DNA from: a virus | Virus record (IMG/VR): IMGVR_UViG_3300042306_000603 | Coordinates: 1-23,173 of that record | Strand: one strand, 5' to 3' | DNA: 23,173 bases | Notes under the pieces: generated by a model | What the model saw: only the letters and a program-made list of their open reading frames with translations | Databases searched by the model: none | Told to the model about the DNA's origin: nothing | Part shown: positions 1,323 through 23,173 of the stretch, in pieces | Numbering within the stretch: position 1 is the first letter of the stretch | Layout of the letters: each line of letters opens with the position of its first letter | Translations under genes and position numbers: made by a program

Positions 1323-4295
1323 ATGCCATCAGATATATATGCAAGAACGTCAAGCGGCTGGTCGGGAGCTGTAAAAAAGATATATGCAAAAACAGGATCA
1401 AGCTGGTCAGCAGCAGCCAGATTTGTCTATGCCTATATAAATAGTGGTTGGACAAGAGTATGGCCACTTTCTGGAATATATTCAACAACAAGTCCTTTTG
1501 TATCAAGAACAAATTCTTCTTCAGAATTAAGTTACGGAACGGTACTAAGAGTTGGGTCAACAATTAGAGGTAATAGGGGAACATGGAACCCTAATGGATA
1601 TACCATATCTTCATATGAATATAAATGGAGGGCATACACTACCGAAACTGGATTAGGAACTCAATACGACTCAGGGCTCTCAACCCTTTCTGGTACTACC
1701 AATGATCAATTAATAGATGGAACAAGTTTTGATAGAGGATGGCTAACTTTTTTTGTTAGGGCAAAGGCATCTGGAGGATCTGCATATGACGGATCCGATG
1801 AATCTTTAAGGTACTACGTTGTCAGACAAAGGCCACGCATATCTATTGGCACAACACCGTCATTTAATAATAATTCTCCAAAAGTTGATGATGTCATGTC
1901 GTACTCCTCTTCATGGGATACATCAGATGCATATTTGCCAGAGGGAACAAGAACAACTATTAAATGGTATAGAAATTCTTCTGCCTCAACCACTGGTGGA
2001 ATTGAAATTCAAAGTAGCGGGTACTCTTATACTGTCAAAGAAGCAGACATTGGTAATTATATTTATGCAGTAGAAACAACTTTTAATTCAGGATCAGACT
2101 ATGACCTAGGTACCACGACTGGTGTTTCAGCTACCGCAATAACAAGCAGCCCAGCACAATCAGGCTTACTTCCCCCAGGACCGTTAACTGTGACTACATC
2201 CTCAACAACAAGCAGTTGGTCACTAAATATAACATTCGGTGCAAATACTACTTCAGCAAAAATAGAATACGGCGGAAGTATATATTATGGATATAGCGCA
2301 ACAATTACATCATCAGGAACATTTACTCCAGTCGGACCATTTGCAAGCGATACAGAAAATTATTTTAGAGTAACCCCGTATAATCAAACCAAGCCTGGAG
2401 ACCCAGTAACGGGTAGCGTAAGAACTAAAGTTCTTGTAACACCCCCAGGACCAGCTAGAAATGTTACTGCAGATAACGTGGCTGGAAGAGACTATAATGA
2501 TGGTCAAGTACTTATAACTTGGGATCCACCGTTAAATAACGGCGGTGCTCCAGTAGACTACTATAGGGTCCAGTATGCTTATGACTATGACGTAAGCACA
2601 TGGTATACGCTATCAGATAACTGGACCGCAAGTCCGATGTATGCTGGCCCATTTAGTGATGGGTATACTGTAAGGTCAAAAGTTTTTGCACATAATTCAG
2701 AAGGATATTCTGCAAGTGCGGTCTCTCCTCCACCAGGAACTTATGTAAATACAAAGGCAGAGCCTCTAGTTATTACAAGTGCTACTCGTCAATCTTCTAC
2801 ATCAATTCGCGTTGCCTTTACTCCAAGCGTACTCTACGGCGGAACAAAAGGAACTGGAGGAAGCAATGTTTTATACTTCTTAAGAACAGCATCAGATGAA
2901 GGATTCACATCTAGGCAAGTTACTACTTCTCCATTTACAATTACTGGACTAAATCCAGGATATGAGTATAGAGTCTTTATAAGAGCCTCAAATGATCAGG
3001 GAACTGCCGATTCAAATTCTGTTTATGTTTCTTTAGTAAATCCACCAGCGATAATTTCTGGCATAACACCAGATATTACACCAAAGTCTGGCACAGCAGG
3101 AGTAACTCAATATTCTGTAAGTAATGGAGCATGGTCAGGCTCTCCAACCAGCTATACATATTCATGGAGATATAGAGAAACATCAACAATTTATCCAGCA
3201 GCACCAGGTGTAAATAATCAATCAACATATACGCCCCCAGCAAACTTTGTCACACTTTACGGAAACACATTAAGATGTGTTGTTACTGCAACCAATGCTG
3301 GAGGATCAACCGACGCCAGCTCTGGAGATGTAAGCGTTTCCGCTCCAGTATCTGCTCCTACAGGTTCTGTATCAATTTCTCCATCGGGAACAGTTCAGGC
3401 ACGGACTCAAATAACCGCAACATCATCTTTTACAAACTCGCCAACTTCATCTTATATTGAAATAAGAAAAGCAACAGGAAGAACTCCTACTCAATCAGAC
3501 ACACTAGTTACCTCTTCTAATTCAACCCAGGTTTCACATACAATTACAGATTCTGAGGCATCGGGAACACCAGATAGATTTATTGCATTTGCGTATGCAT
3601 CAAATTCTGGTGGAACTTCTCCAACATATTCTTCAAATGTTATTACATCAACTCCGTATGTTCCTCCAAATGTTGCCCCATCGGGAGGCTCTGTATCAGT
3701 AAGTCCCGCATCTGGCACAGCGGGATCAACTACATACACAGCTTCAATATCTGGGTGGTCTGGAACACCTAGTACATTTAGTGCTACTTACTCATGGCAG
3801 TACATGAATACAAGTTTTTCCTGGGTTCAATTTACAACTGGATCAACTGCAATACCGCCGTCAAACGTAACGGCATATGCATGGAGAGTTGTTGCTAATG
3901 TTTCAAATGGAGTTTCTCCAAATGCCGAAGCCACATCAGCATTTTCTGTAAGTGCTCCAACTACCACCACTACAACTACTACAAGCACAACCACTACAGC
4001 ATGTGTTTGTGTTTATCAGGATATGGGAGATTACCATTATTCGCCAGACTGTTGCCCAGGTGGATCACCAAGAACTGGCTCTTTAAGTGGAAATACTGTA
4101 AATAACTGTTGCCCAAATGTTACAAAGCCAACCACTACTACAACAACCACTACAACTGCTGGAAGGCCTACCGTATACTGGAAATGCAATCAGGCTGACG
4201 TAAATAACTCAAGCAATCCATGTACCTTTGTAGGGCAATGTCGATTTGCTGGCAATACCTATTTTGCTGCAGGATGTACATCTTGTTGCGATTAG
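1323..4295 (+). CDS. Large tail adhesin with Fn3/Ig-like domains and Cys-rich tip
   Basis: This 990-residue protein is probably a tail fibre or receptor-binding adhesin. Residues 1-50 hold three short repeats with IYA...GW spacing, a pattern I associate with phage tail-tip proteins. Beta-sandwich modules follow: an Ig-like domain (about 60-165), fibronectin type III-like domains (about 376-470 and 480-570, with PGPARNVTA and TGLNPGYEYRVF), then repeated Ig-like modules ending near 878. Residues 880-892 and 937-945 are poly-Thr linkers, each followed by a module with six cysteines (893-936 and 946-990). An AGGA ribosome site lies 5 bases before the ATG. It follows the preceding tail gene closely and its stop is followed at once by a promoter. 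Domain boundaries were judged by eye. The Cys-rich tip is unusual for an intracellularly folded phage protein. Confidence 0.75.
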   Translation: MPSDIYARTSSGWSGAVKKIYAKTGSSWSAAARFVYAYINSGWTRVWPLSGIYSTTSPFVSRTNSSSELSYGTVLRVGSTIRGNRGTWNPNGYTISSYEYKWRAYTTETGLGTQYDSGLSTLSGTTNDQLIDGTSFDRGWLTFFVRAKASGGSAYDGSDESLRYYVVRQRPRISIGTTPSFNNNSPKVDDVMSYSSSWDTSDAYLPEGTRTTIKWYRNSSASTTGGIEIQSSGYSYTVKEADIGNYIYAVETTFNSGSDYDLGTTTGVSATAITSSPAQSGLLPPGPLTVTTSSTTSSWSLNITFGANTTSAKIEYGGSIYYGYSATITSSGTFTPVGPFASDTENYFRVTPYNQTKPGDPVTGSVRTKVLVTPPGPARNVTADNVAGRDYNDGQVLITWDPPLNNGGAPVDYYRVQYAYDYDVSTWYTLSDNWTASPMYAGPFSDGYTVRSKVFAHNSEGYSASAVSPPPGTYVNTKAEPLVITSATRQSSTSIRVAFTPSVLYGGTKGTGGSNVLYFLRTASDEGFTSRQVTTSPFTITGLNPGYEYRVFIRASNDQGTADSNSVYVSLVNPPAIISGITPDITPKSGTAGVTQYSVSNGAWSGSPTSYTYSWRYRETSTIYPAAPGVNNQSTYTPPANFVTLYGNTLRCVVTATNAGGSTDASSGDVSVSAPVSAPTGSVSISPSGTVQARTQITATSSFTNSPTSSYIEIRKATGRTPTQSDTLVTSSNSTQVSHTITDSEASGTPDRFIAFAYASNSGGTSPTYSSNVITSTPYVPPNVAPSGGSVSVSPASGTAGSTTYTASISGWSGTPSTFSATYSWQYMNTSFSWVQFTTGSTAIPPSNVTAYAWRVVANVSNGVSPNAEATSAFSVSAPTTTTTTTTSTTTTACVCVYQDMGDYHYSPDCCPGGSPRTGSLSGNTVNNCCPNVTKPTTTTTTTTTAGRPTVYWKCNQADVNNSSNPCTFVGQCRFAGNTYFAAGCTSCCD
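3960..3998 (+). repeat. ACN trinucleotide tract (poly-Thr linker 1)
   Basis: Thirteen codons, twelve ACN and one AGC, encode Thr880-Thr892 with a single Ser. The third base varies freely, so the tract is kept at the protein level. It joins the last Ig-like module to the first six-cysteine module. Confidence 0.9.
4131..4157 (+). repeat. ACN trinucleotide tract (poly-Thr linker 2)
   Basis: Nine consecutive ACN codons encode Thr937-Thr945 and join the two six-cysteine modules. With the tract at 3960 it gives two near-homologous stretches flanking one module, so recombination between them could delete or duplicate it. Confidence 0.9.
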
Positions 4296-4297
4296 TA

Positions 4298-4326
4298 TTG
4301 ACAAGATTATATGAAATTGGTATCAT
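4298..4326 (+). promoter_or_regulatory. Sigma70-type promoter, extended -10, leaderless
   Basis: TTGACA at 4298-4303, 17 bp spacer, TGG then TATCAT at 4321-4326. The expected +1, 7 bases after the -10, is 4333, exactly the A of the next ATG. No Shine-Dalgarno sequence precedes that ATG. It begins 3 bases after the adhesin stop codon. Confidence 0.7.
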
Positions 4327-4332
4327 TAAATC

Positions 4333-4692
4333 ATGCTTCTAAGTAAAGATAATATACATATAGTTCTTGAAGGTCAAGAACACAATTTTAATGAAAATAT
4401 ACATAGTCTTGCTTGTTTTATTATTAATGAAACAGTTGTTGAAAATGGCATATACTCATTAGAACTCATAAACTTATTTAATAATTCAGTTATTGAAGAA
4501 AAAGAGCAATATGAAGATGGAGATATCTTGCTTACCTTAACACATAAGGAAGACGGAGAAGAGCAATATATGCAGGTGGATGAGAGAATGGGATCTATTA
4601 TGCTCAGTAACCCTCAATTAATTGAAGTTCCCGAAGGATCCCAGTGGGTTGTAATAGGCTCAAAATATATAGATGGGATTTTTTATCCATGA
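4333..4692 (+). CDS. Hypothetical protein, 119 aa, leaderless
   Basis: I do not recognise this family. The protein is acidic, with short beta-type segments and no cysteine cluster, membrane segment or signal peptide. The C-terminal half (ITVP-like stretch, IEVPEGSQWVV) reads as a beta-strand protein. It directly follows the tail adhesin and is the first gene behind its own promoter. The ATG falls on the predicted transcription start and lacks a ribosome binding site. The stop overlaps the next start (ATGA at 4689-4692), so it is translationally coupled to the small cysteine protein and then to the glycosyltransferase. Position suggests a virion-associated or tail-assembly role, but nothing in the sequence proves it. 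Confidence 0.75.
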   Translation: MLLSKDNIHIVLEGQEHNFNENIHSLACFIINETVVENGIYSLELINLFNNSVIEEKEQYEDGDILLTLTHKEDGEEQYMQVDERMGSIMLSNPQLIEVPEGSQWVVIGSKYIDGIFYP

Positions 4693-4952
4693 CAGAAAAG
4701 AATAGATTTGAACAGTATTTAGAAAAGCAAAAAGAAAGAGCTGAAAGCGAAGGCAAAAAAGATGTAAAGCCTTGGGACCTTCTTAATCCTAATACTGAGT
4801 ATGTAGATTCAGAAATCTCATCAGAAAGATTTAATATATGTAAGGTTTGTCCAGAGCTATTTCAAATGACCAAACAGTGTAAAAAGTGTGGGTGCTTTAT
4901 GGCATTAAAAACTAAGTTAAAAAATGCAAGCTGCCCGATTGGTAAATGGTAA
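4689..4952 (+). CDS. Small cysteine-rich zinc-ribbon protein, 87 aa
   Basis: The start is placed at 4689, an ATGA overlap with the previous stop; an upstream in-frame ATG at 4644 would add an unlikely extension. The N-terminal half is charged and probably helical. The C-terminal half carries C51-x2-C54, C64-x2-C67, C69 and C82 in a compact ribbon with the typical end ASCPIGKW. Similar small proteins (DUF6171-like, from memory) occur in many marine and freshwater tailed phages beside tail genes, with no assigned role. The stop overlaps the glycosyltransferase start (TAATG), so the two are made together. It may be a structural zinc protein or an assembly factor, which is inference. Confidence 0.8.
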   Translation: MTEKNRFEQYLEKQKERAESEGKKDVKPWDLLNPNTEYVDSEISSERFNICKVCPELFQMTKQCKKCGCFMALKTKLKNASCPIGKW

Positions 4953-5854
4953 TGGCTAGCATATTCGTTCAAATACCCTCATACCACGACCTAGAACTGG
5001 CTAGAACAATTCAGGATTGTTTAAAAAAAAGTTCAGGTAAACATGTTATAAATTTTGGAGTACATTTAACTTACTTTAATAATAACGACATTAATATTCC
5101 TAATTTAAATAATGTCAAGTTTAGTATAAGCCGTGCTCCAGATAATATAGGGGTGGGAACTTCAAGGCATATAGCAAATGAATTCTATAATGGAGAAGAT
5201 TATTATTTGCAGATAGATTCTCACATGCGATTTGGTGAGTTCTGGGATGATATTCTAATTAATAATTATCTAAAGTATAAGTCTATGGGATCTAATCCAG
5301 CTATATCCTGTTACCCTGGAGCATACGAGTATAATGGATTTGACGTGGACATTTTAAATACAAAGTCTCACGTTGCATATACTGAATTTATTCAAGAGTT
5401 AAGCTTTCAAAATAACTATGTTCCGCACCAAAGAGCAGTTGGAAATTTTGGAAACAATGTTTTTTCAAAATCTGTGTCAGCCGCATCAATATTTTCAAGT
5501 GGAGAAATGGCATCTATAAAACCAAATAAGAAGATGTTTTTTTGGGGAGAAGAAATTTTAACAGCCATAAGGCTATATACCCATGGGTTTGATATAATGT
5601 TGCCAGAGGCTCAATTCTTTTACCATCTATACTATGACCACGCAAAAGGCTATAAAAATTTAAGAAGGCAGGTAACGGAAGATTTCCCTATAGAGTCTTC
5701 TGTTCTTGAAACAAATTCACAAAAAGAGCTTAAAAGGATTATCATCGATAAGCCAGTGGGGGATCAAGAGCTGGGATCAATAAGGACCCTAGAAGAATAC
5801 GAGTTATTTGCGGGCATCAATTTTATTGACAAAAAGATTACGCAAGTGTTATAA
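4946..5854 (+). CDS. Glycosyltransferase, GlcNAc-type (PF11397-like)
   Basis: A probable GlcNAc transferase that moves a sugar from a nucleotide donor to a protein or glycan. Visible family marks are IFVQIPSYHD (6-15), the strand-helix start; IGVGTSRHIA (68-77), in place of the usual GPCWAR block; GEDYYLQIDSHMRF (83-96), with the metal-binding D91-x-H93; and FFWGEEILTAIRLYTHGFDI (198-217) with YHLYYDH. These match the glycosyltransferase family that includes the Skp1 GlcNAc transferase of Dictyostelium. At 302 residues it is a single soluble domain with no membrane anchor. Starts at 4946 or 4952 are both possible. It is coupled to the cysteine-rich protein and lies one operon below the Thr-linker adhesin, which makes a tail protein a plausible acceptor. 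The acceptor is inference. Confidence 0.88.
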   Translation: MVMASIFVQIPSYHDLELARTIQDCLKKSSGKHVINFGVHLTYFNNNDINIPNLNNVKFSISRAPDNIGVGTSRHIANEFYNGEDYYLQIDSHMRFGEFWDDILINNYLKYKSMGSNPAISCYPGAYEYNGFDVDILNTKSHVAYTEFIQELSFQNNYVPHQRAVGNFGNNVFSKSVSAASIFSSGEMASIKPNKKMFFWGEEILTAIRLYTHGFDIMLPEAQFFYHLYYDHAKGYKNLRRQVTEDFPIESSVLETNSQKELKRIIIDKPVGDQELGSIRTLEEYELFAGINFIDKKITQVL

Positions 5855-17096: not shown

Positions 17097-17271
17097 TGAG
17101 TTTTTAAATAGTAAAGATTCTGAGTTTGCTAACTTAGAAGAAATCGCTGGTCAAAAGCCATGCTCTAAATGCGAAGAGTTTTCCAGTAGTTATTTCTGGG
17201 ATGCTTCTAGTTTTACTATGAACTGGAAATGTAAAAGTGGGCACCCAAATCAGGTAAAGGTTAACCTATGA
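17083..17271 (+). CDS. Small cysteine protein, 62 aa
   Basis: ATG at 17083 inside the end of recA. The product has CSKC near residue 27, then a Cys and His near the end (WKCKSGH), which could form one zinc ribbon. The N-terminus is an acidic helix. It is coupled to the following oxygenase by an ATGA overlap. No function is recognisable; by position it might be a RecA accessory or a zinc protein working with the oxygenase. It is one of five small Cys-type proteins in this window. Confidence 0.75.
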   Translation: MPNINEFLNSKDSEFANLEEIAGQKPCSKCEEFSSSYFWDASSFTMNWKCKSGHPNQVKVNL

Positions 17272-18041
17272 TAGAAAAGATTGTAATCGCCCCACAAATT
17301 ATAGTTTATAAAAATGCTTTATCAAATAGCAGATCTATTATAGATATGATTGAGTCTGCAGACGAAGTCAAATGGGAAACCTGGTATGAAAATGGATGGA
17401 GATCTTCAGTAGACTTTGATAAAACAAAAGGAGAAGAGTCCTCTCCAATACAAGACATATGCAATGCGTTTGACTATGTTGCAAATGATTACATGTCAGA
17501 CTATTCAGGTGATAGAGGGGTCTGGCCTACCTTTATAAAAAATTGGGATAGTACTAATCTAAATCAAGATAACTATAAGATAGACTTCTTTAAGTATAGC
17601 CACCTATCTTTTGAAAACATGAAATGGGAATCAGATTTATTAATGAAATACCATGTAGACGAATTTGATGCAGACGGTGTATTTAAGAAATACAAAAATA
17701 TAGTTACAATAAACTTTTACCTAAATGACGATTACGAAGGTGGCGAGATCTGTGCTTACAATAAGGACTTGAATGTAAGCTATAGGTATAAGCCAGTGGC
17801 TGGAGATGCAGTTGTTATGCCCTCTGCTAGTCCATTTTTTCATGCAGTAAAGCCATTCTATATGAAGGATAGATATTTTTTAAGATTATTTATTACATAC
17901 GATCAAGGAGAAGATGTGGCTAACAACTATGGAGATTTCTATTCTGAAGAGCACCATGTCGGACATCAGGCAGAAAAAGATTTTATAGATAAAGATTTTC
18001 AATTTTTAAATGTTAACATTAAAGAAGTAGAGGTAAGATAA
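17268..18041 (+). CDS. 2-oxoglutarate/Fe(II) oxygenase, prolyl-hydroxylase type
   Basis: A 257-residue soluble dioxygenase that would use 2-oxoglutarate, O2 and Fe(II) to hydroxylate a substrate. The double-stranded beta-helix core shows H129-x-D131 (YHVDEFDAD), NFYLNDDYEGGEICAYN (149-165), the distal iron ligand H192 (FFHAVKPF) and R202, which would bind the 2-oxoglutarate carboxylate. The order and spacing fit prolyl 4-hydroxylase-like phage oxygenases. The first 100 residues are a family-specific helical part. The substrate is unknown: protein proline, a modified base and a sugar are all possible. It is coupled to its neighbours by ATGA and TAATG and lies in the RecA block, which could favour a nucleic acid role. 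Confidence 0.9.
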   Translation: MIEKIVIAPQIIVYKNALSNSRSIIDMIESADEVKWETWYENGWRSSVDFDKTKGEESSPIQDICNAFDYVANDYMSDYSGDRGVWPTFIKNWDSTNLNQDNYKIDFFKYSHLSFENMKWESDLLMKYHVDEFDADGVFKKYKNIVTINFYLNDDYEGGEICAYNKDLNVSYRYKPVAGDAVVMPSASPFFHAVKPFYMKDRYFLRLFITYDQGEDVANNYGDFYSEEHHVGHQAEKDFIDKDFQFLNVNIKEVEVR

Positions 18042-18346
18042 TGTCTGAAAGATCTGAAGTCAAAAGAGACGGAGCTAAGGCTCAAAAAAATTCAGGTAGG
18101 GGAGATTACCAAAAAGGAGATGCACAATGGAATCAGTTCCTTGTAGATTACAAAGAAGCTGGAACGTCATTCACTTTAAACAAAGACAACTGGGCAAAAA
18201 TCTGTACTGATACATTTAAAGTAAATAGAAATATGCACCCAGCGTTAAAAATTATTATTGGAAGTGAGTCTAAAGTTAGACTTGGTATTATTGAGTGGTC
18301 CGTACTGGAAGAACTCATAGAGTTTTGGGAGGATAACAATGTATAA
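18041..18346 (+). CDS. Putative PD-(D/E)XK-type nuclease or resolvase, 101 aa
   Basis: The N-terminal half has RDGAKAQKNSGRGDYQKGDA then FLVDYKEAG: a small basic region, an acidic residue (D27) and D36-x-K38, the spacing of a PD-(D/E)XK core as in Hjc-like Holliday junction resolvases. The typical first Glu of that family is not clear, so the match is partial. The second half (NWAKICTDTF, RLGIIEW) is helix then strand. It starts by TAATG overlap with the oxygenase and lies in a recombination block. A small DNA-binding protein of unknown type is the alternative. Confidence 0.6.
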   Translation: MSERSEVKRDGAKAQKNSGRGDYQKGDAQWNQFLVDYKEAGTSFTLNKDNWAKICTDTFKVNRNMHPALKIIIGSESKVRLGIIEWSVLEELIEFWEDNNV

Positions 18347-19031
18347 ACTTGATGTTTATTTAGGGAATAATGTAAAGAGCGCAAAGATAAAGCCACTTAC
18401 AGCCAAGAGGGACTGGATGGAAACTCTTGCATACAACTGCTACCCAATGACCTCAGCAAATCTATTAGGGTACTATATTTATTTTGAAGAAGACGTTTCT
18501 TTTATTTGGGATGGAGACAATTTAACTCCAGCCAAGCCTACAAATGGATCTGAAAATGTTTGGGTCGGTAGACCATTTGGTACAGTAAGCTTTGAAACTA
18601 ATTTAGTGTTTAAGTCTGATCCAGACACTAGCATTTTAATTGGTCCACCACCAAATCATTTTATTGAAGGTGCAAACGTTATTAGCAGTCTAGTATCATC
18701 TTCATTTTTTACAGGAGCATTACCTATAGTCTGGAAGCTTCATGTTCCAAACAAAGAATATTTTATTCCAGCAGGCACCCCCATAGCATCAGTATTGCCA
18801 CTGTCACTATCTGCATTTGATAATTCAGAAATTAATTTTACTGGCGAGGTTTATGAGGGATACAGATTGCATAATGATTCAGAGTACATAGACTGGATTC
18901 ATAATCAATATGCTGAGAATGATGTTTGGCCTAAAGTATATGAAAAAGGTAAAGATCATAAAGGTAATAAAGTCGGAGAGCATGAGGTTCAAAGATTAAA
19001 GATGCATATTAAATACGGTGATAAGAAATGA
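18339..19031 (+). CDS. Conserved phage hypothetical, DUF6065-like
   Basis: A 230-residue protein with a beta-rich, cupin-like middle (FIWDGDNLTPAKP, LIGPPPNHFIEGANVISS, FFTGALPIVWKLHVPNKEYF, then IPAGTPIASVLPL). These blocks recall the family DUF6065, whose role is unknown; this is from memory and by eye. The strong GPPPNH and PxGTP blocks suggest a binding site, possibly for a small ligand or metal. It overlaps the nuclease-like gene by 8 bases and is coupled by ATGA to the first micro-membrane protein. There is no signal peptide or membrane segment. The C-terminal 45 residues are charged. Confidence 0.7.
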   Translation: MYKLDVYLGNNVKSAKIKPLTAKRDWMETLAYNCYPMTSANLLGYYIYFEEDVSFIWDGDNLTPAKPTNGSENVWVGRPFGTVSFETNLVFKSDPDTSILIGPPPNHFIEGANVISSLVSSSFFTGALPIVWKLHVPNKEYFIPAGTPIASVLPLSLSAFDNSEINFTGEVYEGYRLHNDSEYIDWIHNQYAENDVWPKVYEKGKDHKGNKVGEHEVQRLKMHIKYGDKK

Positions 19032-22177: not shown

Positions 22178-22317
22178 AATTCTATCAAAGCAAAGAGTGG
22201 CTATACAGAAGGTATGTTGTACAAAAGAAAACTGTAACTGAGATAGGCAAAGAGTGTGAGGTCTCAGCTATGACTATTCAAAGATACTTAGAAAAGTTTG
22301 GACTAATAAAGAAATGA
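22174..22317 (+). CDS. Small helix-turn-helix protein, 47 aa
   Basis: ATG at 22174 overlaps the DUF2061 stop, and its TGA at 22315-22317 overlaps the next start. WLYRRYVVQKKTVTEIGKEC is followed by EVSAMTIQRYLEKFGLIKK: a classic helix-turn-helix in which TVTEIGKECEVSAMTI is the turn unit and TIQRYLEKFG the recognition helix. The pattern is common as the DNA-binding end of phage homing endonucleases and as a stand-alone peptide. It may be a small regulator or a remnant of a larger protein. Confidence 0.75.
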   Translation: MKFYQSKEWLYRRYVVQKKTVTEIGKECEVSAMTIQRYLEKFGLIKK

Positions 22318-22919
22318 TAAAAAATATATTTATTATTGGAGAAAGCCAGATTGCATACGCATCTGGAGGGGTTGTTCATGCTGGCCCATTAAAGGCTTTA
22401 GAGTATGGCTCACACAGTAGATCAAAGTCTGGATATGATTTAAAGTTCTTGTGGCAACACAGCCGAACAACATATAAGATTGACTTTGCCTATCTAGAAG
22501 ATTTATTTAAAAATAATATATCTGAGCTAGGCGAGCACTCAGTAATTGTTTCAGAGTTTGGAGGTATGGATGCAGCTTTAAATCAGTACCAAAAGCATAA
22601 CAATATGGAAGAAGTTATTACTAGGTACACTAGTGAAATTATTAAATTTTCTAAAAAATATAACACTAAGTTAATATTCATGTCACCTTGGTGGCTAGTT
22701 GAAGATGACAATCACTATAAAACCTGGGACGATATGACTCTTCTTTTTAGAAAAATATCAAAAGAAAATAACCTACCTGATCCAATAGAAGTTATGCATA
22801 ACGTAGTTGGAAGAATGTACCCTGTATTAGACGAGTGGAAGCATCATGTTCCAGAAGACTCTGAGCGCATAGTTGACTATGTAATATTAAAGGTAAGTGA
22901 GTACTACGGAAATGATTAA
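22314..22919 (+). CDS. SGNH-hydrolase-like protein, copy 1
   Basis: A 201-residue protein. The start, IFIIGESQIAYASGG, fits block I of SGNH/GDSL hydrolases with Ser11 as the possible nucleophile (GES in place of GDS). IVSEFGGMDAAL (78-89) may be the block III loop, though it lacks the usual Asn. D173 and H177/H178 (DEWKHH) could be the catalytic Asp-His pair. If active it would remove acyl groups from a glycan or lipid. The match is partial, so the call is cautious. It is coupled by ATGA to the helix-turn-helix peptide and is followed by a paralogue. Confidence 0.6.
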   Translation: MIKNIFIIGESQIAYASGGVVHAGPLKALEYGSHSRSKSGYDLKFLWQHSRTTYKIDFAYLEDLFKNNISELGEHSVIVSEFGGMDAALNQYQKHNNMEEVITRYTSEIIKFSKKYNTKLIFMSPWWLVEDDNHYKTWDDMTLLFRKISKENNLPDPIEVMHNVVGRMYPVLDEWKHHVPEDSERIVDYVILKVSEYYGND

Positions 22920-23173
22920 AAACATATTTATTATAGGTGACAGTGCAGTGGCGTATGCTTCTGGAGGAATTGAAGTTCCATCTCCTGTTACTCATCTTAA
23001 ATATGGATCCCACACTAGAGTAAAGAATGGTTACAATTTAATTTTCTTGTGGCAAGAAAGCAGAGGCGCTTATAAGGTTGACTTTGATTACCTAGAAAAT
23101 TTATTTAAAGATAATATTTCTGATTTAGGCGAAAGCTCTGTAATTGTTGGTGAGTTTGGTGGTATGGATGCTG
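22912..23173 (+). CDS. SGNH-hydrolase-like protein, copy 2, partial
   Basis: ATG at 22912 overlaps the end of copy 1 by 8 bases; the gene runs off the window after 87 codons. About two thirds of these residues match copy 1 by eye, including IFIIG(D/E)S, AYASGG, FLWQ and EFGGMDA. Here block I is the canonical GDS (FIIGDSAVAYASGG), so this copy keeps the usual nucleophile motif. The divergence is concentrated in residues 20-30, near where a substrate loop may lie. The catalytic Asp-His end cannot be checked. Confidence 0.7.
   Translation, partial: MIKNIFIIGDSAVAYASGGIEVPSPVTHLKYGSHTRVKNGYNLIFLWQESRGAYKVDFDYLENLFKDNISDLGESSVIVGEFGGMDA

Follow-up and report, generated by a model that had tools for sequence, protein, structure and literature searches.

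What does a glycosyltransferase gene do among the tail genes of a phage? The question is raised by a virus record of 23,173 bases (IMG/VR record IMGVR_UViG_3300042306_000603; this whole stretch is referred to here as the window), in which four genes within positions 1323-5854, all on the + strand, encode a 990-residue tail-tip protein with linkers made of threonine runs, a 119-residue protein, a DUF6171 protein, and a transferase of family PF11397. An earlier, sequence-only reading of this stretch had proposed that the transferase glycosylates the linkers. On the basis of sequence comparisons and predicted models, we consider it probable that the transferase is a soluble, cytosolic, metal-dependent peptide O-glycosyltransferase similar to the enzymes of CAZy family GT27, loading sugars of the N-acetylhexosamine (HexNAc) type onto the poly-Thr linkers of the tail tip. 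The features concerned are the following.

1323-4295, + strand: tail-tip protein, 990 residues, a single open reading frame, with an fn3/Ig-like body, poly-Thr linker, Cys-rich module, second poly-Thr linker, and Cys-rich end
3960-3998 (residues 880-892), + strand: poly-Thr linker 1 (TTTTTTTTSTTTT), proposed acceptor, with runs of 8 + 4 Thr
4002-4112, + strand: Cys-rich module with 6 Cys that separates the two linkers
4131-4157 (residues 937-945), + strand: poly-Thr linker 2 (TTTTTTTTT), proposed acceptor, with a run of 9 Thr
4158-4292, + strand: Cys-rich C-terminal tip module (RPTVYWKCN...SCCD)
4946-5854, + strand: PF11397 glycosyltransferase, 302 residues, with a predicted fold like that of polypeptide N-acetylgalactosaminyltransferases (ppGalNAc-Ts) and invariant D91-x-H93, E203, and H227

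The Tail-Tip Protein and Its Linkers

The threonine-run linkers noted in the sequence-only reading are borne out. The run of eight threonines was met in only 1 of 5,000 shuffles of the tip protein's own composition, and the region of linker 1 is Thr-rich in relatives as well. The runs are written in a mixture of ACT, ACC, and ACA codons and are therefore not a slipped DNA repeat; since the program TRF also found no tandem repeat, an origin as a slipped microsatellite is ruled out. Twelve of the 13 cysteines of the protein are located within its final 100 residues, a Cys-rich module following each of the linkers. In relatives the body of the protein can be swapped, whereas the end that comprises the Thr linkers and Cys modules, including the C-terminal module, is retained. 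The Cys-rich tip, used as a query, retrieved a near-identical phage only, and nothing among cultured phages.

The protein is tail-tip-like because its position is syntenic with minor tail genes in Rhodococcus phage NiceHouse, and because of its fn3 domain; it is a putative adhesin.

Predicted Fold and Putative Active Site of the Transferase

The earlier assignment of the transferase to PF11397 (Glycosyltransferase, GlcNAc) is confirmed: the match scores 110 bits, where the cut-off is 21 bits, with E 2.3e-31. The protein also matches PHROG 24687, annotated as 'glycosyltransferase'. We take PF11397 to correspond to CAZy family GT60. The AlphaFold2 model, built with 31 sequences, has a pLDDT of 92 and a pTM of 0.92. 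When it was compared with solved structures by Foldseek, ppGalNAc-Ts came out on top, with E about 1e-10. In the VIA comparison, GalNAc-T2 (6nqt_F) gave a Z of 22.2 with a root-mean-square deviation of 3.4 over 263 residues at 14% identity; ppGalNAc-Ts occupy ranks 1-29, and the best-scoring entry from outside this family reaches a Z of 17.4. The predicted model has the GT-A catalytic domain of ppGalNAc-T type that characterizes GT27. The choice of N-acetylglucosamine (GlcNAc) as the sugar, made in the sequence-only reading, finds no support here, the best fold match being to GalNAc-transferases.

Residues R74, D91, and H93 (the D-x-H motif), as well as E203 and H227, are invariant across the 31 viral sequences. 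In GT27 enzymes, an Asp-x-His motif and a downstream Glu and His serve in the binding of Mn2+ and of the UDP-sugar. D91-x-H93, E203, and H227 may correspond to these motif residues of GalNAc-T2.

The fold matches also include TarP (Foldseek E 9e-8; Z 15.5), a prophage-encoded GlcNAc-transferase that modifies wall teichoic acid. TarP shares with the window transferase the GT-A fold and its phage origin, and differs in its lower similarity and in its acceptor on the host. It gives substance to another explanation, in which the transferase would modify a polymer of the host surface (teichoic acid, arabinogalactan, or another polysaccharide), for example to block superinfection, the neighbourhood of tail genes being incidental. 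Bacterial homologues of the transferase, at 23-31% identity, point the same way, as do distant phage relatives that are not tied to Thr linkers. A tblastn search of 50,697 phage records with the transferase matched only XacN1, CM1, and RAS14, and in the jumbo Xanthomonas phage XacN1 the copy lies apart from the tail genes, adjoining a carbamoyl transferase. Against this explanation, the match to ppGalNAc-Ts lies about 7 Z units above that to TarP; its other difficulties emerge from the distribution of the gene.

Co-Occurrence of the Transferase and Thr Linkers

Three scans, together with further loci, yielded 132 viral loci with the transferase, which form 82 clusters at 90% identity. Scoring was limited to the 51 clusters with an identity of 39% or more to the window enzyme and with sufficient sequence upstream. 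A linker is present near the transferase in 45 of them (Thr-rich in 41, a Pro-Thr repeat in 4), compared with 0/41 transferase-negative tip clusters (Fisher p 5e-20). As a control among sister phages, the neighbouring metallophosphatase was used as the query of a scan; this gave 80 loci in which that gene is 95-100% identical. One of the 80 has both the transferase and a poly-Thr tip; the 79 that lack the transferase include none with such a linker (0/79). Among loci that share the same metallophosphatase, 17 of the 18 scorable clusters fit the pairing. When clusters are chosen instead by the presence of DUF6171, and under a slightly looser linker rule, Thr or Pro-Thr linkers are found in 44/47 with the transferase and in 0/13 without it (p 1e-10); in locus L057, for instance, DUF6171 and a comparable Cys-rich tip are found with neither transferase nor poly-Thr.

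The transferase thus follows Thr linkers and not the phage lineage, both being absent together from sisters whose neighbouring genes are 95-100% identical, and it is recurrently coupled to DUF6171 and tip genes. Both facts argue against a host polymer as the target, which we regard as unlikely. As the putative acceptor of the transferase, the Thr linkers are well supported by these genomic comparisons. The proposal that the enzyme acts on them is strengthened by the co-occurrence and by a predicted fold typical of peptide O-glycosyltransferases; both acceptor and linkage are inferred. The check proposed in the sequence-only reading, co-occurrence across phage genomes, comes out in its favour within the subfamily of at least 39% identity; in other PF11397 subfamilies, most phage proteins have no such linker.

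Several observations weigh against linker glycosylation. The ricin-like lectin domain of almost all metazoan GT27 enzymes is absent, the 302 residues aligning over their whole length to the catalytic domain, and when the transferase was compared by sequence with solved structures, no significant match was obtained, including to any solved GalNAc-T. Mapped onto the tree of the transferase, the Thr label changes 9 times versus 22 times when shuffled and is therefore both repeated and clustered, and the Fisher tests take no account of shared ancestry. Six of the 51 clusters (L322, L333, L339, L342, L345, and L346) keep the transferase with no recognised Thr or Pro-Thr linker nearby, L342 missing the linker rule narrowly. 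PF11397 phage proteins that are less than about 32% identical and without DUF6171 are mostly linker-free, which rules out that all PF11397 phage proteins accompany Thr linkers; the rule is therefore not family-wide. The converse was examined by scanning viral contigs for stretches of ten ACN codons in a row. Only 1 of the 96 loci with runs of 9 or more Thr had a PF11397-like transferase, so that poly-Thr does not imply this enzyme.

The clustering on the tree, and the fact that cassettes travel as units, are also what would be seen if the transferase and the poly-Thr tip were a co-inherited cassette, joined by adjacency alone and with no functional link. However, with the linkers masked, the Thr-linked tip proteins fall into 25 homology groups unrelated to each other and are therefore not one inherited gene. 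The absence of linkers from all 13 DUF6171 clusters without the transferase speaks against simple co-inheritance as well.

In the most likely mechanism, the transferase would move HexNAc-type sugars from a UDP-sugar onto many threonines of the linkers. The donor would presumably be UDP-HexNAc and the linkage a retaining alpha linkage, and the reaction would take place in the cytosol late in infection, before virion release. It is likely that dense O-glycosylation would turn each linker into a stiff, protease-resistant, mucin-like stalk that holds out the Cys-rich tip modules, and that the linker glycans could alter receptor contact or protease resistance.

Linker Types and Companion Enzymes

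Not all linkers are poly-Thr. In L343, L348, and L358, the transferase is joined in the cassette by a 2-oxoglutarate (2OG)-Fe(II) oxygenase and by a protein of the radical S-adenosylmethionine (SAM)/SPASM type, and the linker is (PT)n, with 20-36 repeats located in or near tip proteins upstream of the transferase; a GalE-like epimerase then follows. Such an epimerase lies directly 3' of the transferase in 15 loci, which fits a UDP-sugar donor. PPYF/PPFF linkers accompany a distant clade of the transferase in L040, L045, L360, and L367, together with oxygenases, and in L034, where no oxygenase was detected, while in L062 they are found with oxygenases alone. Among transferase clusters, oxygenases are present in 7/11 with Pro-type linkers versus 8/44 with Thr-type linkers (p 0.005). 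This distribution fits a stepwise modification of tip linkers, in which the type of linker would match the set of enzymes.

The oxygenases bear on the possibility that other residues of the tip are glycosylated, either Ser/Thr within the Cys-rich modules or, in the manner of the Skp1 enzyme Gnt1, hydroxyproline, the Thr runs being mere spacers. Protist relatives of the transferase do include the Skp1 hydroxyproline GlcNAc-transferase (GT60; PMC8724618), and related loci combine the transferase with 2OG-Fe(II) oxygenases and with (PT)n or PPYF linkers. Nevertheless, the cassette in the clade of the window has no 2OG gene: no 2OG-Fe(II) prolyl hydroxylase that would complete a Skp1-type pairing is found within 6.5 kb of the window transferase, and the window's own 2OG-Fe(II) oxygenase lies 11.4 kb away (17268-18041). 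On this ground a hydroxyproline route is set aside for the window itself. In addition, Cys-rich tips also occur without the transferase, which tracks the Thr content of the linkers and not Cys content. Modification of residues outside the Thr runs is thus quite unlikely.

Tail-tip proteins with long PPFF/PPYF repeats, often beside DUF6171 and 2OG-Fe(II) oxygenases, were seen in L062, L063, L085, L091, L096, L119, L034, and L040; it is possible that these are hydroxyproline linkers. Another repeat type, (NTI)n/(NTV)n, is present in tip proteins of L123 (4258-7938), L130 (4240-7938), and L133 (4220-7918), each directly followed by a 2OG-Fe(II) oxygenase gene. In these three the repeats are followed by an apparent Hint/intein-type C-terminal domain (GTQIQMxDGTxKNIEDLYIGDExMA).

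A Second Pairing of a Transferase Fold with Thr-Rich Proteins

Of the 96 poly-Thr loci of the converse scan, 12 carry a protein of ~305 residues that belongs to phrog_4417 ('prophage pi2 protein 34', function unknown), usually directly 3' of a Cys-rich poly-Thr protein. It has no Pfam match. When 100 proteins encoded next to poly-Thr proteins were scanned against Pfam, no glycosyltransferase was among the 25 of 56 families listed, and most phrog_4417 proteins escaped the scan. When phrog_4417 was scanned for in its own right, a Thr-rich protein was found nearby in 46/52 clusters, mostly encoded by the gene immediately upstream. The model of phrog_4417 (pLDDT 93) adopts a GT-A fold whose closest matches are glycogenin and LgtC-type GT8 enzymes (Z 15.1), and its Asp-x-Asp motif is invariant. 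A guessed relationship to plant HPAT/SGT1 (GT95/GT96) was not confirmed, as no such chain is among the matches of this glycogenin/LgtC (GT8)-like model; HPATs have been called GT8-related (PMC4908140).

In cultured phages, phrog_4417 often adjoins head or tail genes, and these phages have virion proteins with poly-Thr ends. The capsid protein of Lactococcus phage 1706 ends in ...TTTTTTTTTHHD and its major structural protein in ...TTTTTTTTTTHHD, whereas in Lactobacillus phage PLE3 the capsid and tail proteins both end in ...TTTTTTTSK. Poly-Thr ends are also found in the head and tail of Enterococcus phage phiFL1A and in the tails of VPE25, PMBT8, and F1. In Streptococcus phages Javan47 and Javan513, the homologues of the tail and capsid proteins have no poly-Thr end, and neither has the homologous tail protein of Lactobacillus phage Bassarid; in all three, the regions examined are without phrog_4417. 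R3.3, a Coetzeevirus like Bassarid, has phrog_4417, and its tail protein ends in ...TTTTTTSHA. The loci with phrog_4417 beside poly-Thr capsid, tail-tube, or tail-tip proteins include L467, L470, L463, L466, L471, L473, and L468, from cultured phages, as well as L159, L168, L181, L189, L199, L214, and L221.

Two unrelated families with a glycosyltransferase fold are thus paired with Thr tags, the second of them with capsid and tail-tube proteins, so that chance or mere inheritance of a cassette is unlikely to account for the pairing. For the window locus, we hold a functionally empty cassette to be very improbable.

A wider statement appears somewhat favoured by the two pairings. Tailed phages would widely equip virion proteins with Thr-rich tags or linkers and encode a cognate peptide O-glycosyltransferase alongside, of at least two unrelated types: a PF11397/GT27-like type acting on tail-tip linkers, and a phrog_4417/GT8-like type acting on tail tips and on the C-termini of capsid and tail-tube proteins. 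The linker would vary with the enzyme set, poly-Thr being served mostly by the transferase alone, Pro-Thr by the transferase with a 2OG-Fe(II) oxygenase and a radical SAM protein, and PPFF/PPYF by an oxygenase, accompanied or not by a distant transferase.

Comparison with Known Systems

The window transferase resembles GT27 enzymes in its catalytic GT-A fold, for which they are the best solved-structure match, presumably in the Asp-x-His/Glu/His motif, and in the Thr-rich nature of the proposed acceptors. It differs from them in its low sequence identity, in having neither a lectin domain nor a signal anchor, and in the lack of a sequence match in the Protein Data Bank. GT60 comprises polypeptide alpha-GlcNAc-transferases of protists, among them the enzyme acting on hydroxyproline in Skp1, and its main difference from GT27 is that it has no ricin-like domain (PMC8724618). 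Like the GT60 enzymes of the Trypanosoma cruzi mucin and Dictyostelium Skp1 Gnt1 type, the window transferase consists of a catalytic domain of ~300 residues with no ricin-like domain; unlike them, it is encoded by a phage, within a tail operon, and its acceptor would be a poly-Thr linker. phrog_4417 and the window transferase are both found beside Thr-rich virion proteins and both are predicted to be GT-A enzymes, but their sequences are unrelated, the former being GT8/glycogenin-like (Asp-x-Asp) and the latter GT27-like.

That a phage glycosylates its own virion, presented as novel in the sequence-only reading, had already been reported for mycobacteriophages. According to these reports, capsid or tail-tube proteins of Che8, Corndog, and Myrna are glycosylated at their C-termini (PMC12363180, PMC12619734, PMC11256854). 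In common with Che8 gp110, Corndog gp38, and the Myrna system, the window transferase would be a phage-encoded glycosyltransferase decorating virion proteins in an actinobacterial phage (Freeman 2023, as cited in PMC12363180 and PMC12619734). The targets differ, being C-termini of capsid and tail-tube proteins there and presumably the tail tip here, and the passages concerned describe no poly-Thr tag. The tblastn search of 50,697 phage records, at the level of sequence, gave no mycobacteriophage match to the transferase, and thus no sign of homology to Che8 gp110 or Corndog gp38. No paper on poly-Thr in phage virions was found in the literature. As far as searched, the association of a GT27-like phage enzyme with poly-Thr tip linkers, the correspondence between linkers and enzymes, and the phrog_4417 pairing are new.

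If correct, this reading would describe a mucin-like route of O-glycosylation aimed at the receptor-binding tip of a phage and using the same fold as the mucin enzymes of animals. It would also suggest a function for phrog_4417, whose annotation goes no further than 'hypothetical' in familiar phages of Lactococcus, Lactobacillus, Enterococcus, and Staphylococcus. A poly-Thr tag with a neighbouring transferase would serve as a simple criterion by which glycosylated virions could be predicted, of relevance for phage stability, host recognition, and antibody recognition, the last of which has been reported for mycobacteriophages.

Genes between the Tip Protein and the Transferase

The transferase does not come straight after the tip gene, as had been stated in the sequence-only reading, since two genes intervene.

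4333-4692, + strand: 119-residue protein, kept between the tip and DUF6171 genes in close relatives; no significant Pfam or PHROG family
4689-4952, + strand: DUF6171 protein (PF19668), 87 residues, with Cys motifs, directly 5' of the transferase and adjoining it in most relatives

The DUF6171 protein matches PF19668 with 35.5 bits against a cut-off of 27 (E 1.4e-8), as well as PHROG 13558, and its gene sits between those of the tip protein and the modifier. It overlaps the start of the transferase gene by 7 nucleotides, which suggests that translation of the two is coupled. DUF6171 genes neighbour Cys-rich tips whether the transferase is present or not, and the protein is probably an accessory factor in modification or maturation of the tip. 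The DUF6171 protein of the window is Cys-rich and ends in CPIGKW. In many phages DUF6171 comes after the genes for the tail tip, as in cyanophage S-SRM01, where the preceding gene encodes an adhesin tip; in Rhizobium and Stenotrophomonas phages, it is found amid unrelated genes.

Gene Order and Probable Host

The + strand genes of the window pass from minor tail genes to those of replication (metallophosphatase, DnaB-like helicase, primase, and DnaE). The same order is found in Rhodococcus phage NiceHouse, which has minor tail proteins, small genes, a metallophosphoesterase, a helix-turn-helix protein, DnaB, primase, and DnaE. The host is probably an actinobacterium because the closest cultured relatives are Rhodococcus phages for the metallophosphatase (56-60%) and Streptomyces phages for DnaE (58%). 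The tip gene is preceded by one further structural gene.

1-1314, + strand: minor-tail/structural protein, 437 residues, open at the left end of the window; PHROG virion structural and tail fibre matches; the tip gene comes next in relatives

Amid the replication genes lie a 2OG-Fe(II) oxygenase (PF13640; 17268-18041) and a DUF6065 protein (18339-19031); seemingly the same pair stands beside tip genes in L059, L062, and L367. At the right end, two adjoining and overlapping look-alike genes (MIKNIFIIGxSxxAYASGG...; 22314-22919 and 22897-23173), the second of which runs off the end of the window, appear to be a tandem duplication.

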